DNA from: Lactiplantibacillus dongliensis
GTDB lineage: Bacteria; Bacillota; Bacilli; Lactobacillales; Lactobacillaceae
Reading direction: 5' to 3'
DNA length: 34,901 nucleotides
Assembly (NCBI RefSeq): GCF_005405105.1
Contig: NZ_BJDK01000036.1
Location: 1 to 34,901, forward strand
In this document: piece after piece, positions 10,970 to 19,967 of the stretch
Layout of the letters: the number at the start of each line of letters is the position of its first letter
Numbering within the stretch: position 1 is the stretch's first letter
Notes under the pieces: generated by a model
Seen by the model: only the letters and a program-made list of their open reading frames with translations
Database searches by the model: none
What the model was told of the DNA's origin: nothing
Made by a program: the position numbers and the translations under genes

Positions 10970-10998
10970 ATCTTACCGATTTTCAGCCGCTAATTCAA
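10970..10998 (-). promoter_or_regulatory. Promoter of ytxK-ackA
   Basis: On the minus strand TTGAAT (10993-10998), a 17-bp spacer and TAAGAT (10970-10975). The -35 overlaps the last codons of comGG. It gives ytxK-ackA vegetative expression independent of the competence operon upstream. Confidence 0.65.
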
Positions 10999-11247
10999 GC
11001 TGGAGCCCCGGTGACGTGCGGAAGCGTTCTCTTTTTGCGTAGATGTTGTTCTAGCTTTTGACCGCGTCGATTGCACTGACTTTGTGTGCTTTTGCACAGT
11101 TAACTTAGTTGGGTGACGATAGTCATTGATCAATGCTTGATAGACTTGTTGACGTTGCACGTAGTTGAGATAACGATAAGTCTCAAACGCACTAAAGATT
11201 AAGACAAAACTTAAGACTGATAATAAAACCGTACCGCGATGCTTCAT
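10990..11247 (-). CDS. comGG: ComGG-position competence protein
   Basis: A short 85-residue protein with one N-terminal membrane helix (about residues 7-24) and a basic Ser/Thr-rich tail. Sequence similarity to B. subtilis ComGG is not obvious; the assignment rests on position as the seventh gene of the operon, the single N-terminal helix, and the 4-base ATGA overlap with comGF. ComGG is a minor component of the competence pseudopilus. It is shorter than the roughly 120 residues of B. subtilis. AAAGGTGG lies 7 bases before the ATG. Confidence 0.75.
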   Translation of the reverse strand: MKHRGTVLLSVLSFVLIFSAFETYRYLNYVQRQQVYQALINDYRHPTKLTVQKHTKSVQSTRSKARTTSTQKENASARHRGSSLN

Positions 11248-11654
11248 TTTTCAGCCACCTTTGGAAGTAGAAGTCGGGACTTGAAAGTTTGGCCTTTTAG
11301 GGTGGTGACGGATAGATGCAGATCATCATCTAATTTAAACGATTTGACATTTGGCATTAAGACGATGAAACCGCGTGAATTGCTCTTCAGTCGTAGATCA
11401 TTCTTATCCAATACTAGATTAAATGCCTTCATTCTTGGCGAGTAAAACATTTGGTCGCTACTTTTAAACGAAAATCCATGTGCTGGATTTTCTAATTCAT
11501 GCAACATCAAGTACCATTCCACTTCTGGAGCAGCTTGTTTAGAATTATTCCTAATACTGTGTTCACCTTGAAAGATTACGCCACCTATGATGAGTAAAAT
11601 GCTCAGCGAAACAACGACTTCAATCATCGTAAATCCTAGTGTTTTATTTTCCAT
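11244..11654 (-). CDS. comGF: ComGF-like competence pseudopilin
   Basis: A 136-residue type IV pilin-like protein. The leader has the prepilin processing site Gly7-Phe8 followed by TMIE (Glu12, position +5 of the mature protein) and a hydrophobic helix (about residues 9-27). The C-terminal part is a beta-rich domain. It is a minor pseudopilin of the DNA-uptake apparatus, cleaved by ComC. The start overlaps comGE by 11 bases and the ribosome site is weak, consistent with coupled translation. Confidence 0.85.
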   Translation of the reverse strand: MENKTLGFTMIEVVVSLSILLIIGGVIFQGEHSIRNNSKQAAPEVEWYLMLHELENPAHGFSFKSSDQMFYSPRMKAFNLVLDKNDLRLKSNSRGFIVLMPNVKSFKLDDDLHLSVTTLKGQTFKSRLLLPKVAEK

Positions 11655-11865
11655 CCTGCATGACCACTTTTACCGTATCTCCCTTTAACTGAATACTTTC
11701 ATAATGTTCTCTGGCCATTTGAATCTTAAGCAAAGACGCCTGTTCACGCTGTTGCATCATATATTCAGTACCACCCCACAAAACAATCGAGCTGGTCAAA
11801 ATTGTTAATGCCACCACGATTTCAGCCATGATAAAACCTGAATGCCGTTTACTCAATCGTAACAT
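11644..11865 (-). CDS. comGE: ComGE-like competence pseudopilin
   Basis: A 73-residue short pilin-like protein. A basic leader ends at Gly10, followed by FIMAE with the +5 glutamate (Glu15) and a hydrophobic helix. It is identified as ComGE by operon position and prepilin motif. GGGGAG precedes the ATG by 6-7 bases, and the start overlaps comGD by 17 bases. The ORF is shorter than B. subtilis ComGE (about 115 residues), as is common in lactobacilli. Confidence 0.82.
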   Translation of the reverse strand: MLRLSKRHSGFIMAEIVVALTILTSSIVLWGGTEYMMQQREQASLLKIQMAREHYESIQLKGDTVKVVMQDGK

Positions 11866-12349
11866 GGTAAGCTCCCCATCCCATTTGCGTCGTTATTTTG
11901 ACCGTTTTCTTAGTCAACTCCGAGTAAATTTTAAAAGTGGTTAACGACGGATGCCCAGTTTTACTAATATAAATCCGATTTAAATATTTGCCATCAATTT
12001 TAGGCCGTTGGACAAATTTTAATGTTGGCGGCAATTTAACTGGCGTTTTAATTGCCTCAGATGGTTTCTGTGGATTAAAACGATGAAACTCAATTTGCTG
12101 TGGCTGATTATCAGTTGTATAAAAGATAACCGAACGGGCCTTCTGCTGCGAACTTGCCATATAGATATTCTGCTTCCACAACGTATTCAACCGTTCCCAA
12201 AATAATTGTTCATTATTAACTTGCTGCTGACGTGATGGAAACTGATACATACCGATAAGCAGTAGTGACCCTAACAGACTCATCACAATTGTTGTCTCTA
12301 ACAATGTAAAACCTAGCCTGCAACTATCCCTTTGACCCAGTAATTTCAT
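11849..12349 (-). CDS. comGD: ComGD-like competence pseudopilin
   Basis: A 166-residue pseudopilin with a prepilin site at Gly13-Phe14 (GFTLLE, +5 Glu18), a hydrophobic helix over about residues 14-33 and a globular, basic C-terminal part. It is exported and processed by prepilin peptidase, which is not in this window. The ATG has AAAGGA about 8 bases upstream and overlaps the 3' end of comGC by 26 bases. Confidence 0.88.
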   Translation of the reverse strand: MKLLGQRDSCRLGFTLLETTIVMSLLGSLLLIGMYQFPSRQQQVNNEQLFWERLNTLWKQNIYMASSQQKARSVIFYTTDNQPQQIEFHRFNPQKPSEAIKTPVKLPPTLKFVQRPKIDGKYLNRIYISKTGHPSLTTFKIYSELTKKTVKITTQMGWGAYHVTIE

Positions 12350-12680
12350 TTCCTGAATCCTTTGGTAATTTAATTGTCGTTTCGGCTTGTTTCTTTTGTC
12401 TATCAGTTAAATAATCATCCTTTTTCAAATTTTCATAATTAACCGATTTATCAGTAACCTTAACATTATGATCATTTGCGTACATTGCTGCTTGATTCTT
12501 GACAACCGTTTCTAATGCCTCATGCTGCTGTACACCCGCCTTTTCTCGTTGATTATTCAAGTTCGGTACAATAATCAACATCAACAATGCAATGATTGCT
12601 AGAACGATCACCATTTCGATTAAAGTAAATCCTTTTTGTGGTGCCACACTCTTCCGCATAACCTTTTTTAATGTCATCAT
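12324..12680 (-). CDS. comGC: ComGC major competence pseudopilin
   Basis: A 118-residue major pseudopilin. The basic leader ends in QKG, with cleavage expected between Gly17 and Phe18, then FTLIEMVIVLAII with the conserved +5 glutamate (Glu22). A short soluble domain follows, with residues 46-75 resembling other ComGC proteins (AGVQQHEALETVVKNQAAMY). ComGC polymerises into the fibre that crosses the wall during transformation. Two adjacent ATGs are possible (12680 or 12677); the second has better spacing from AGG. It overlaps comGB's stop codon. Confidence 0.93.
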   Translation of the reverse strand: MMTLKKVMRKSVAPQKGFTLIEMVIVLAIIALLMLIIVPNLNNQREKAGVQQHEALETVVKNQAAMYANDHNVKVTDKSVNYENLKKDDYLTDRQKKQAETTIKLPKDSGNEITGSKG

Positions 12681-13726
12681 TTTCCTAATTCCCCCATTGA
12701 GTTGTACATCGGTAATAAGATGTTTAAATACGTGCCAACGATTACAACGGCAATCACCATAAACATTAATGGCTGAATCCAGCTAATGAGCCGGTTCAAA
12801 TCCCGGACAAGCCGATCATATTGCAACGTTGCAAAATAAATCAATTCTTTACTAAGTTGTTCTGGTGGACTTTCTTTACCAACCAATACGGCCAATTCGT
12901 CTGGCAACAGTCGATCACCATGAATAATCGTGGTTAACGATTGGCCAGCTAATAAGGCTTTTTCAACTGCCGTACCTTGTTGCTGCAACAACGACTGACT
13001 TTTAAATTGCCGACTCACTTCACAAATCGCCCGCAATCCCAGTCCCCCTGACAACAACATTCCCGCATTCAAAGCCAAGTAATAGCCGCAATAGGTCCGA
13101 ATTAATGAACCGACTAGTGGCCAGCGAGCTAATTGCTGGTAACGAGCGCGGACTGGGAGCCGTTTGAGCTGACCAATGACTAATAGTGCCGTCAACCCGC
13201 CAATGCTCGCTAAGCTACCTAAAATTAGCTGCCAAGACAAGGCGCTTGCTGGCGCGTTGAGTGCTTGATCAAAATTCGGTAGAATTGCCGTCTTAACCAC
13301 GGCCAAAGTCCCAACTAATAACGCCAACAATACTAACGGGTATTGCAGTAATCGGCGAATCTGTTGCTGTTGTGCAGCTTTCGTTCGCATTAACCGCCCG
13401 GCCTGAATAAGCGTCGACACTAATTCACCATGCTGCTCCGCGATTAATAACTGGTAGTATAAATCCACTGCGATATAATCCTGTAGGGCAGTGGCCAAAT
13501 CCTCGCCACATTCTAACTGGGTAATTGCCACCCGTAAGCCGGCATACTGTCGTCCTTGGACATCCACAACAAAGCCCATTGCGGCTCGCAACGAAAACCC
13601 ATTTGTAATCAGATCGGCTAACGTTTCGAATAGACCGGCTTGCACCTTAACTGATAAACGTTTAGTCCCCCGTAAGCTGTTGGGCCACGGTCGCGTCGAG
13701 GTGGCCGCTTGTGACGTGTGCTTCAA
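12677..13726 (-). CDS. comGB: ComGB competence inner-membrane platform protein
   Basis: A 349-residue GspF/PilC-type platform protein with two T2SSF domains (about residues 30-150 and 225-345) and three membrane helices (about 125-148, 165-185 and 320-342). It anchors pseudopilus assembly and couples it to the ATPase ComGA. The TTG start at 13726 is supported by GGAGG 7 bases upstream, which places a 65-base overlap with the end of comGA; translation is probably coupled. Confidence 0.92.
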   Translation of the reverse strand: MKHTSQAATSTRPWPNSLRGTKRLSVKVQAGLFETLADLITNGFSLRAAMGFVVDVQGRQYAGLRVAITQLECGEDLATALQDYIAVDLYYQLLIAEQHGELVSTLIQAGRLMRTKAAQQQQIRRLLQYPLVLLALLVGTLAVVKTAILPNFDQALNAPASALSWQLILGSLASIGGLTALLVIGQLKRLPVRARYQQLARWPLVGSLIRTYCGYYLALNAGMLLSGGLGLRAICEVSRQFKSQSLLQQQGTAVEKALLAGQSLTTIIHGDRLLPDELAVLVGKESPPEQLSKELIYFATLQYDRLVRDLNRLISWIQPLMFMVIAVVIVGTYLNILLPMYNSMGELGK

Positions 13727-14642
13727 TTAATCGCCTCCATTCCGCGGTCATCAATTGACCAGTTTTGGCCATCGACAACTGAGTCAAATCCGTTACGATA
13801 TCAAATATCGTCGCTTGCGTCCCATCTGTTAATGGTAACAACCGCTGATACGTGACCGTTGCTAGTGCCTGTAACAAGGTACCCCGATCAACGCCTAATT
13901 GTTCTAACCGTGGTAACACCCCATAGACACCCCGCGCATGCAAAGTGCTCAACACTAAATGTCCGCTCAAAGCAGCTTGAACCGCAATCTGCGCGGTCTC
14001 TGCATCCCGAATTTCACCAATAATAAAGACTTCCGGGTGATGTCGTAAACCGACCTTCAACAAATCGGCATATGTCATCTGGGCGGCCGGATTCACTTGT
14101 AACTGTAAAAATTGGGGCTCGTAGATTTCGACCGGATCTTCAATCGTCATCACCACTTTTTGACCACCATATTCGCGCACTAAATCATACATGGTCGTGG
14201 TCTTCCCTGACCCCATTGGTCCCGAAAAAATAATTAACCCACTTTGCTGCAATTGATGCTGTAAAATAGTCCGTTGATTTGGAACTAAATACTGTAGATT
14301 CACCGGGTCATCCGGATAGAGCAATCTTAAAACTAAGGACTCACGACCTAGAAAATCACCCACGGTTGAAATGCGCATATTAAGGACGGACTGCGCAACG
14401 GTCATCGTCATCGCACCAAGTTGTGGGCGGCGATGGTCACTGATGGCCATATTGCTGCGATACTTAATGTGATTGATCAGCTGCTGGCCGCGGTCGACTT
14501 CCAAAGTCATTAGCGTTGTCAATTGACCAGTAGCTTGAATTAAAACTTGATAGGCTTCCGCAGTCGGCAACCAATAGATATCACTAGCTTGTTGATCGAC
14601 TGCGGCCTGAATGATGGTACTTAACTGGACTTCAACTGACAC
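13662..14642 (-). CDS. comGA: ComGA competence traffic ATPase
   Basis: A 326-residue GspE/PilB-type ATPase powering pseudopilus assembly. Walker A is GPMGSGKTT (about residues 141-149), the Asp box is TIEDPVE (about 164-170), Walker B is FIIGEIRD (about 200-207), and the His box LVLSTLHARG follows at about 225-234. The start is GTG with AAAGGAG 8 bases upstream. It heads a seven-gene operon whose members overlap throughout. No sigma-A promoter is seen, but a weak ComX-type box is (14666-14673). Confidence 0.95.
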   Translation of the reverse strand: MSVEVQLSTIIQAAVDQQASDIYWLPTAEAYQVLIQATGQLTTLMTLEVDRGQQLINHIKYRSNMAISDHRRPQLGAMTMTVAQSVLNMRISTVGDFLGRESLVLRLLYPDDPVNLQYLVPNQRTILQHQLQQSGLIIFSGPMGSGKTTTMYDLVREYGGQKVVMTIEDPVEIYEPQFLQLQVNPAAQMTYADLLKVGLRHHPEVFIIGEIRDAETAQIAVQAALSGHLVLSTLHARGVYGVLPRLEQLGVDRGTLLQALATVTYQRLLPLTDGTQATIFDIVTDLTQLSMAKTGQLMTAEWRRLIEAHVTSGHLDATVAQQLTGD

Positions 14643-17650: not shown

Positions 17651-18511
17651 TTACCCTCGACTTTCAATCAATTTCGTTTCCAACCCACGCAAGTAATGAT
17701 AACTCGCTAACATATTGGCACAAGTACTATCTGATTCATCCGGCACCTCATAAATCATAGTGGCTTTGGGATTCATCACACTTAACACCCGCTGCCAGTC
17801 AATCAAGCCTTCACCTAATGGCAGACTATCATGCCGCTGACCAAGTGAATCCACCAGATGATAATGCTGAATCAATGGCCGCAGCCGCTTCAACGCCAGC
17901 ATCGTCAATTCCATATCGCCATGCAAGCCAATAAATACGTGACTCAAGTCGCAGACTAACGGATAGTGATGTTGAATCAGCTGTTCATCCAACTGCGGAT
18001 CACCATACATAAAGCTTGGCGTAATTCCATTTTCAATCATCACATGTCCTTGTCCCTGCTTGACTAACTCATCTAACCGCGCGAAAACGGTGCTCCGAGC
18101 TTCTGCTAGCGATGGGTATTCAGCGACTAGCGCCGCACTTTCGCCCCCACCATAGCCACCATGAACCAGCAACCGACAGTCATATTCCGTTACTAAGTCC
18201 AATAGTTTCGCGGTCGAATCTTGTAAAAATTGATAGGCTTCCGGTTGCCGTTGCGGATCTAATAATTGATCCAAATGCACGCCGTGATAGCTCATCGGAT
18301 GATGCACGACGACATCCTCAGTCACATTGTCGATCACAAATTTAATCGCATCGCCCAAATGTTTTAGGCCATCACCTTCAAAATCGGCGGCACTGGTATA
18401 AAATTCAAAAGTCGTTGGCCGATACTGCAGGCGATTCATTAATTGTACCGGTTCAGCGGACGCTTTTAGGCCTAACTGCACTAAGCCCGGGCGTTTTGCT
18501 AACGTTAGCAT
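17651..18511 (-). CDS. Sugar phosphate isomerase/epimerase-like TIM barrel
   Basis: A 286-residue protein of the AP endonuclease 2 / xylose isomerase-like TIM-barrel superfamily. Likely metal-site residues appear in VVHHPMSYHG (about residue 72), VHGGYGGGE (about 122), the glutamate in MIENGITPSF (about 168), CDLSHVF (about 200), HYHLVDS (about 230) and the final IYEVP (about 263). Substrate unknown. AAAGGATG lies 8 bases before the ATG. It is followed closely by the DsrE-like gene. Upstream lie the three 71-nt repeats and the ccpA terminator; I see no convincing -35/-10 in front of it. Confidence 0.8.
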   Translation of the reverse strand: MLTLAKRPGLVQLGLKASAEPVQLMNRLQYRPTTFEFYTSAADFEGDGLKHLGDAIKFVIDNVTEDVVVHHPMSYHGVHLDQLLDPQRQPEAYQFLQDSTAKLLDLVTEYDCRLLVHGGYGGGESAALVAEYPSLAEARSTVFARLDELVKQGQGHVMIENGITPSFMYGDPQLDEQLIQHHYPLVCDLSHVFIGLHGDMELTMLALKRLRPLIQHYHLVDSLGQRHDSLPLGEGLIDWQRVLSVMNPKATMIYEVPDESDSTCANMLASYHYLRGLETKLIESRG

Positions 18512-18592
18512 TTTATCATCCTTTCTTTGAGTCTTTTTTTGTCTTCCTATTAAATGTTGATTTTTTCTGGTTGAGGAACCTTCTAATTTTTC

Positions 18593-18663
18593 AGCCGAAA
18601 CGTGTTCCAGAACGACTGCCAGTTCCGCTTGCTACACCAGTTGACCATGCGGAAAGCCCACCG
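18593..18663. repeat. 71-nt repeat, copy 1
   Basis: Begins AGCCGAAACGTGTTC and ends GCCCACCG. It differs from copy 3 at a single base (18636, A instead of G). It contains an internal inverted repeat TTCCGC / GCGGAA enclosing 20 bases. The minus strand is the direction of neighbouring transcription. Confidence 0.85.
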
Positions 18664-18683
18664 ACTGTGCATTCCAGTTTTCT

Positions 18684-18754
18684 AGCCGAAACGTGTTCGC
18701 TCGGGCAACTTCCTCCGCTTAGCTACGCTAGCCAACCATACCGGAAACCCACCG
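18684..18754. repeat. 71-nt repeat, copy 2 (divergent core)
   Basis: Keeps the first 15 bases (AGCCGAAACGTGTTC) and the last 7 (CCCACCG), and the total length of exactly 71, but much of the core differs. The core contains a different small hairpin (TAGC-GTA-GCTA on the minus strand). Confidence 0.85.
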
Positions 18755-18774
18755 GTGGTACTTTCTATTCTACT

Positions 18775-18845
18775 AGCCGAAACGTGTTCCAGAACGACTG
18801 CCAGTTCCGCTTGCTACGCCAGTTGACCATGCGGAAAGCCCACCG
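18775..18845. repeat. 71-nt repeat, copy 3
   Basis: Matches copy 1 at 70 of 71 bases. The three copies start at 18593, 18684 and 18775, an exact 91-bp period, separated by 20-bp unrelated spacers. No ORF explains them. Confidence 0.85.
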
Positions 18846-18903
18846 CATAATCAACTAGCTAGGCAATGCTCACTGGCAACTCGTCGTTCTTCCACACTCT
18901 ACC

Positions 18904-18934
18904 AAAAAAGGCCCAGAACCGAAGTCCTGAACCT
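18904..18934 (-). terminator. Rho-independent terminator of ccpA
   Basis: On the minus strand an 11-bp stem (AGGTTCAGGAC with GTTCTGGGCCT, including GU pairs), a TTCG loop, then TTTTTT. The 71-nt repeats begin beyond it, so they are outside the main ccpA transcript. Confidence 0.92.
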
Positions 18935-18956
18935 AGTATACGCCAAATAACTTAAC

Positions 18957-19967
18957 CTATTCAGCTGATTTTGTTGAGCCCCGACGGACAATCCCATATG
19001 GTAAGGTAACGGTCTTTTCGTCGAGTTCTTTATCGTTCATTAACTTGGTTAACATCCGCATGGCAACGGCACCAATATCATACAAAGGTTGTGTGATTGA
19101 CGTGATGGCTGGCCGCGCAATTTGGGTCACAATCGTATCGTTACTAGTGATGACTTCTAAGTCGTCTGGAATACTAATCCCAGATTCAACACTAGCATTG
19201 ATAATCCCAGCCGCCATTTCATCGTCGCCAACGAAGACCGCAGTTGCACCACTATCCGCGATAACGGGTTGTAACTTGGTCCCAGCATCGTATGAGTAGC
19301 CGGCTTCATAAACCAACTTGTCGTCATATGGCAACTTTGCCTTGTTCAAAGCACGTTTGTAACCGGCTAACCGGTATTCAGCGTTGATTGATTGTGACAA
19401 CGGTCCTAAGGCAATGGCAATCTTTTCGTGACCGCGCTTGATTAACGCAGTGACCGCTTCTTCAACCGCTGCGGCATAGTCGATGTTAACACTTGGCGTT
19501 TCGCCTTGTGGGTCAACCGTTCCGGCTAACACAACGGGCGCTTTAGCACGTTTGAATTCAGCACGGAGCTTATCATCGATATGGTTTCCCATGAAGATGA
19601 CCCCATCAACTTGCTTAGCCATTAACGTGTTCAAGACATTCACTTCTTGTTCGCCGGCATCGTCGGAGTTAGTCAAAATGATATTGTACTTGTACATCAT
19701 CGCAATGTCATCAATCCCACGGGCTAATGACGCAAAATAAATGTTCGTGACGTCTGGGATAATAACCCCCACCGTCGTCGAACGCTTGCTAGCTAAGCCA
19801 CGGGCAACCGCGTTTGGCCGATAATCAAGGCGTTCGATTACTGCCAAGACCTTCTTACGTGTCGCTGGCTTGACATTCGGATTCCCATTAACGACCCGTG
19901 AGACGGTGGCCATTGAAACCGCCGCTTCACGTGCCACATCATAAATCGTTACTGTTTGTTTTTCCAT
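18957..19967 (-). CDS. ccpA: Catabolite control protein A
   Basis: A 336-residue LacI-family regulator. The helix-turn-helix is at residues 6-25 (VTIYDVAREAAVSMATVSRV), the hinge around residues 50-60 (AVARGLASK), and a periplasmic-binding-like effector core follows. With HPr(Ser46-P) it binds cre sites to repress or activate carbon-metabolism genes. The family call as CcpA rests on sequence similarity in the DNA-binding head and on the divergent pepQ neighbour typical of lactobacilli. AAAGGG lies 10 bases before the ATG. Its promoter (19994-20022) carries a cre-like half-perfect site in the spacer, suggesting autoregulation. Confidence 0.97.
   Translation of the reverse strand: MEKQTVTIYDVAREAAVSMATVSRVVNGNPNVKPATRKKVLAVIERLDYRPNAVARGLASKRSTTVGVIIPDVTNIYFASLARGIDDIAMMYKYNIILTNSDDAGEQEVNVLNTLMAKQVDGVIFMGNHIDDKLRAEFKRAKAPVVLAGTVDPQGETPSVNIDYAAAVEEAVTALIKRGHEKIAIALGPLSQSINAEYRLAGYKRALNKAKLPYDDKLVYEAGYSYDAGTKLQPVIADSGATAVFVGDDEMAAGIINASVESGISIPDDLEVITSNDTIVTQIARPAITSITQPLYDIGAVAMRMLTKLMNDKELDEKTVTLPYGIVRRGSTKSAE

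Follow-up and report, generated by a model that had tools for sequence, protein, structure and literature searches.

A family of dispersed repeats with a conserved rod-like fold docked at gene ends in Lactobacillaceae

attC sites, above all the ~123–126-bp repeats of Vibrio, are imperfect palindromes with variable arms and conserved bulges that lie at gene ends, and BOX elements have a modular make-up. BOX elements of Streptococcus pneumoniae are dispersed intergenic repeats with stem-loops (PMC3049150, PMC2267715), and REP and REPIN sequences with RAYT are dispersed extragenic palindromes (PMC3116915, PMC3733652). ERIC/IRU, NEMIS/Correia and other bacterial MITEs are dispersed, non-coding sequences of ~100–200 bp whose transcripts are long stem-loops, and NEMIS transcripts were proposed to act on neighbouring mRNAs (PMC2229807). 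The repeats bcr1–bcr18 of Bacillus cereus are intergenic, with about half of the copies expressed (PMC3446304), and some repeat families of this species have a conserved RNA structure (PMC2267715). A study of mRNA decay in B. cereus reported expression for 84 of 165 and for 62 of 155 intergenic repeats, and a correlation with decay rate for one repeat family (PMC3446304).

The element described here is also short, dispersed, structured and found at gene ends, as are ERIC and NEMIS in the available descriptions, but unlike these MITEs it showed no clear target-site duplication, has no flush terminal inverted repeats, docks at stop codons and terminators, and shows strong covariation across genera. 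In 194 copies the two ends matched at 2.0 of 12 positions when unshifted; shifting them by 5 raised this to 7.4 of 12, which corresponds to the terminal helix. Like bcr1–bcr18, it is intergenic and structured; the host family differs. Whereas BOX elements are modular, the element forms one rod, and its apex-truncated copies lie downstream of a full copy. It resembles attC in length, in its imperfect palindrome, in its variable arms with conserved bulges and in its position at gene ends; in contrast to attC, its copies are not in one cassette array and nearly all are without the core sites (of 194 copies, one strand has GTTRRRY in 5 and RYYYAAC in 4, the opposite strand in 4 and 5, respectively). 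Compared with REP/REPIN, the hairpin is far longer, the genome of the window contained no PF01797 (Y1 transposase) match, and 22 of 194 copies carried a GTAG tag at their 5' end. The element thus fails the tested definitions of a flush-inverted-repeat MITE, a Y1-dependent REPIN and an attC site.

The window is the whole analysed stretch of 34,901 nt from Lactiplantibacillus dongliensis, whose genome is called the own genome below. The features around the repeats, in the order of reading of the minus strand, are:

18957–19967, minus strand: ccpA, lying upstream of the element and in the same sense (TIGR01481, 568.9 bits, cut-off 442.35)
18909–18934, minus strand: terminator-like hairpin 3' of ccpA; its T-run ends just before the RNA 5' end of the element at 18900
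18776–18900, minus strand: full element, with RNA-sense 5' end at 18900 and 3' end at 18776 (R3 match, 113.5 bits, positions 1–124 of 124)
18755–18775, minus strand: 3' tail of the full element, reaching the start of truncated copy 2 (in other copies, a loosely conserved T-poor tail after GTTTCRRC)
18684–18754, minus strand: copy 2, of another variant than the full element and 5'-truncated, with its cut in the apical loop
18664–18683, minus strand: tail of truncated copy 2, previously taken as a spacer
18593–18663, minus strand: copy 1, 5'-truncated, of the variant of the full element (70/71)
17651–18511, minus strand: downstream, same-sense gene of the xylose-isomerase-like TIM-barrel type (PF01261, 39.9 bits, cut-off 31.1; zero NCBIfam matches)

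The original prediction described three exact 71-nt copies with 20-nt spacers, copies 1 and 3 differing at one base and copy 2 being much changed. The same starts (18593, 18684 and 18775) and spacer lengths were found again, with 70 of 71 identical positions between copies 1 and 3, and 43 and 44 of 71 between copy 2 and the other two; the variants stand in A-B-A order. The 71 nt, however, are not the unit, because copy 3 continues to 18900 as a full unit of 125 nt (18776–18900), the only whole copy in the window; copies 1 and 2 are half copies. The 71-mers alone gave no folding signal above that of shuffled sequence, whichever strand was folded. The CCCACCG sequence, regarded as a constant end of the element, is instead the apical loop at which copies 1 and 2 are cut. 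The spacers had been called unrelated, which holds only in part: a loosely conserved tail adjoins the AGCC end. The proposed helical phase of 91 bp was abandoned because other arrays in the own genome have other steps, from 79 to 138.

Alignment of 42 distinct copies showed that most continue ~50 nt past the 71 nt to a conserved CACACTCT-like end. The whole element is ~124 nt, mostly 119–126 nt, of which the 71-nt piece is one half; in RNA sense it reads 5'-AGAGUG...CACGUUUC-3'. The full unit folds into a single long rod of ~40 base pairs with internal loops that are preserved across genera. On both strands, z values of −5.8 to −9.5 were obtained as RNA (three copies) and −6.3 to −8.6 with DNA parameters (two copies); for the full element of the window, the RNA values were −7.4 and −7.6 on the two strands. 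A covariance model, R1, was built from nine copies, and R3 is the model turned to the minus strand. In an R3 search of the window up to E 0.1, the full element was the only match. Within it, a promoter-like match at 18823–18851 (+) was near chance (1 found against 0.5 expected). Four matches of 78–79 nt in the own genome (C21:22457–22534, C25:42479–42557, C28:11672–11749 and C31:40144–40221) suggest, from their length, a recurrent mini form; in the C25 match (L008) both ends are present and the apical part is missing.

Compensatory base-pair changes exceeded the controls, as expected for a structured RNA, in alignments that were fitted to the model and hence favour the structure. Among 65 copies under R3 (6 from Lactiplantibacillus, 59 from other genera), 97.3% of cells were paired, two-sided changes occurred in 37 of 40 pairs, and the covariation score was 0.897, against 0.088–0.127 for slid controls. 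In the set of 35 own-locus rows, which includes one opposite-strand echo, two-sided changes affected 29 of 40 pairs and the score was 0.522, against 0.050–0.095 for slid controls. The earlier proposals are supported in two respects: that selection acts on structure rather than coding, and that the copies are a structured RNA family or a miniature repeat.

The two strands were distinguished by their non-Watson–Crick cells. After opposite-strand echoes and matches outside 112–131 nt were left out, the plus strand showed A-C against G-U cells of 71 vs 11 (34 own rows), 186 vs 63 (106 named Lactiplantibacillus rows) and 91 vs 24 (75 further rows, 10 from two further Lactiplantibacillus genomes and 65 from other genera). 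Sign tests gave about 1.5e-6, 6e-12 and 7e-10 by row and 0.0009, 0.011 and 0.013 by pair for the three sets; because the rows are related, these values are not strict probabilities. A plus-strand excess of A-C cells equals G-U pairs on the minus strand. Judged from this asymmetry, it is the minus strand that is folded, as RNA or single-stranded DNA, rather than the strand on which the repeats were originally read. The G-U share of standard pairs was ~3% (91/2815). As this is low for RNA, a folded single DNA strand is also possible.

The original prediction would have fallen had there been no other copies; these were found in the own genome and its relatives, and the repeats are not a chance feature. 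With the 311-nt stretch as BLAST query, the own genome yielded 47 matches, the stretch itself included, and R1 gave 74, of which 11 were opposite-strand echoes; 56 of the remaining 63 were at least 110 nt long. Across Lactobacillaceae, the family of the window, R1 matched 45 of 121 genomes and 16 of 40 genera. An order-level draw of 198 genomes contained six with a match at E ≤ 1e-5, and each of the six belongs to Lactobacillaceae. Copy numbers in the R1 surveys of more than 40 genomes are lower bounds, since at most 29 (family) or 17 (order) candidates were scored per genome. A pattern scan of genome contigs found at least 91 stretches; among the 80 loci listed, 78 were Lactiplantibacillus and two were apparent chance hits. 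These loci were chosen by a motif in the RNA 3' half, and the first own-genome loci by a BLAST query rich in 3' halves. The relative G135 (Lactiplantibacillus) shares the ccpA stretch of the window at 94% identity.

No full-copy match at E ≤ 1e-5 was found in 50,697 phage records or in 72,556 plasmid records, sets from which records near the own genome may be excluded. Rfam 15 gave zero matches at gathering score for the window and 15 loci of other genera; two miRNA models reported at E ≤ 10 for 18400–19000 were far below their gathering scores and were regarded as chance. The Rfam, phage, plasmid and own-genome Y1 searches did not identify the repeats as part of a known mobile element. A literature search, mostly outside subscription journals and covering the available parts of PMC5217627, PMC2267715 and PMC2864571 among others, gave no recognised description of the repeat. 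The element is apparently uncharacterised so far.

The position of the element relative to genes was analysed in 114 full copies from the own genome and named Lactiplantibacillus loci, with genes on both sides assigned by simple ORF calling; sites that are orthologous between closely related species enter this set repeatedly. The upstream gene (RNA sense) was co-oriented with the element in 78 of 114 copies. In 43 of these 78, thus 43/114 overall, a same-sense stop codon lay within 10 nt of the element 5' end, overlapping the element in 29 (distances −8, −6, −1 and 0). Only 1 of 36 oppositely oriented upstream neighbours was as close, and 1 of 55 convergent downstream genes lay within 10 nt of the element 3' end. 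A further 27 copies started directly behind a terminator-like hairpin with a T-run, compared with 12 of 570 shifted background points; 19 stood behind another copy, and 25 belonged to no docking class. In the window, the element begins just past the ccpA terminator.

Across 21 species, the element was present in 8 and 2 at two gene-end sites and in 6 behind ccpA, indicating that occupancy changes between species. At both gene-end sites the stop codon was in place where the element was absent. This indicates that the native gene ends came first and the element was inserted there. Empty sites in other species had diverged too far for junctions to be read. These results rest on other comparisons than a regex search, which returned 1742 'copies', many of them false.

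The arrays were strongly polar. The first member in RNA sense was full in 52 of 52 arrays (own genome and named loci). Among copies away from the locus edge, 75 were 5'-truncated and 3 were 3'-truncated, one of the three being apex-deleted; these loci were selected by a 3'-half pattern. The neighbour-side labels are unsure at overlapping HMM hits, so the order rests on the array analysis. Truncation starts clustered near the apex, and solo truncated copies made up 3 of 69 in named loci. Because of the selection by 3' half, a whole-genome check was made with two 13-mers, one per half. It yielded 44 pairs, nine unpaired 5'-half motifs and six unpaired 3'-half motifs in the own genome. All nine of the former lay inside model matches, five full-length and four of 78–79 nt, and four of the six latter lay in no model match; this check agrees with the 5'-truncation bias. 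In genome G123, inspected by hand, there were 11 motif pairs, three unpaired 5'-half motifs and nine unpaired 3'-half motifs. As truncated copies keep one arm only, the rod is not needed at every site.

On the whole, array neighbours resembled each other no more than randomly drawn pairs do. Similarity between array neighbours was 0.768 in L. modestisalitolerans and 0.775 in the own genome, against 0.771 and 0.783 for random pairs; in L. songbeiensis it was 0.83 against 0.779 (three pairs only). Two-copy arrays paired different variants in 27 of 27 cases. Pairs of copies two apart were often near-identical: similarity reached at least 0.93 in 11 of 29 such pairs in L. modestisalitolerans and in the own genome in 2 of 4, compared with 2 of 59 and 1 of 13 adjacent pairs. 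Template jumping would explain the full-first polarity and the mixed neighbours, but not the A-B-A identity.

A target-site duplication test on 194 copies gave as its largest excess a 2-nt match, in 26 copies against 15.2 with shuffled flanks, after many offsets were tried. No clear duplication was found in the 194 copies and no excision was seen, and it is for this reason that mobility is read from the scatter of the copies and their patchy presence. The 25 widest clusters listed from 993 ORFs at loci with copies contained no transposase, reverse transcriptase or other mobiliser. Genome-wide enzyme searches covered Y1_Tnp and RVT_1. The own genome contained two RVT_1 reverse-transcriptase matches; one reverse transcriptase, on contig C42 (L304:1171–2568, +; PF00078 match), was of group II intron type by eye.

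Taken together, the dispersal and the frequent one-way placement behind gene ends suggest a small mobile sequence whose active form would be a single strand in its folded state. The reading we favour, at somewhat better than even chances, is that these structured, dispersed repeats are a new non-autonomous family, docked at gene ends, whose working form is the folded minus strand, most likely as RNA. Copies join gene ends in a polar manner by their 5' end, either at the stop codon native to the gene or immediately after an intrinsic terminator. Docked copies would then be carried as a sense 3' UTR cap, or alternatively be reached by terminator read-through, as behind ccpA, where the element lies beyond the terminator and may be transcribed little. 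The element probably acts as RNA in 3' UTRs; we infer that it is transcribed, was once mobile and alters 3'-end stability or read-through. An effect in the 3' UTR is plausible by analogy, because B. cereus repeats are expressed and one family is tied to decay rate in the part of that study available (PMC3446304).

The same fold and polarity could also belong to a mobile hairpin at the DNA level, comparable to attC or IS200/IS605 ends: the minus strand would fold while single-stranded in replication, a strand-specific enzyme would move this DNA, and the RNA would be irrelevant. The stable fold with DNA parameters (z −6.3 to −8.6), the strict pairing with few G-U pairs and the polar insertion are consistent with this, and terminators also fold as single-stranded DNA. 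We consider it unlikely, as attC core motifs occur in at most 5 of 194 copies, the own genome is without Y1 transposase, and the presence of this enzyme does not clearly follow that of the element (14 of 45 genomes with the element, 18 of 76 without). Inert DNA palindromes are a very improbable account. Quasipalindrome template switching in replication produces compensatory changes without selection and would keep the arms complementary in the absence of any function, and truncation starts near the apex fit such a process; the internal loops kept across genera, the strand asymmetry and the polar insertion at stop codons speak against it.

The array structure brings in a SINE-like retroelement, whose RNA would be reverse transcribed while jumping between templates and onto mRNA 3' ends. 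It is in line with the sense-oriented docking at both kinds of gene end, the excess of 5'-truncated copies (75 against 3, one of the three apex-deleted), the full copy first in 52 of 52 arrays and the different-variant neighbours in 27 of 27 two-copy arrays. Nevertheless, it appears fairly improbable. Truncated copies seldom stand alone (3 of 69 in named loci), and the frequent near-identity of copies two apart suggests that a local process is at work. RVT_1 occurs about as often with the element as without it (10 of 45 and 17 of 76 genomes), and the loci were selected by a 3'-half pattern, though the own-genome motif check agrees. A bacterial SINE in the strict sense, a structured non-coding RNA that retrotransposes onto mRNA 3' ends by reverse-transcriptase template jumping, is likewise an improbable proposal. 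Its targets would be terminator ends and stop-codon-trimmed ends; it would leave sense copies behind genes and yield head-to-tail arrays in which a single full copy is joined by several that are 5'-truncated.

Lactic acid bacteria carry a structured element in dozens of copies per genome that has no Rfam match as tested, and docking at stop codons and terminators offers a direct handle on the mobiliser. If the element acts as RNA in 3' UTRs, as we favour, Lactobacillaceae would have an extensive level of post-transcriptional control that is open to experiment; should it move as RNA, bacteria would have a counterpart to the SINEs of eukaryotes.

Several minor observations were made at the loci. 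In the window, a run of genes at 10990–14642 (−) resembled by eye a comG-type competence pseudopilus operon. A CRISPR-like array with the repeat ggatcatccctacgtatgtggggaatac was present at the same loci as an element copy (L021, L128 and L081). In genomes G131, G134, G129 and G133 (L264, L270, L276, L284, L294 and others), the element was nested in a longer dispersed repeat, with alignments of ~310–720 nt, and this longer repeat was also found with a short stretch instead of the element (L268, L300 and L302).
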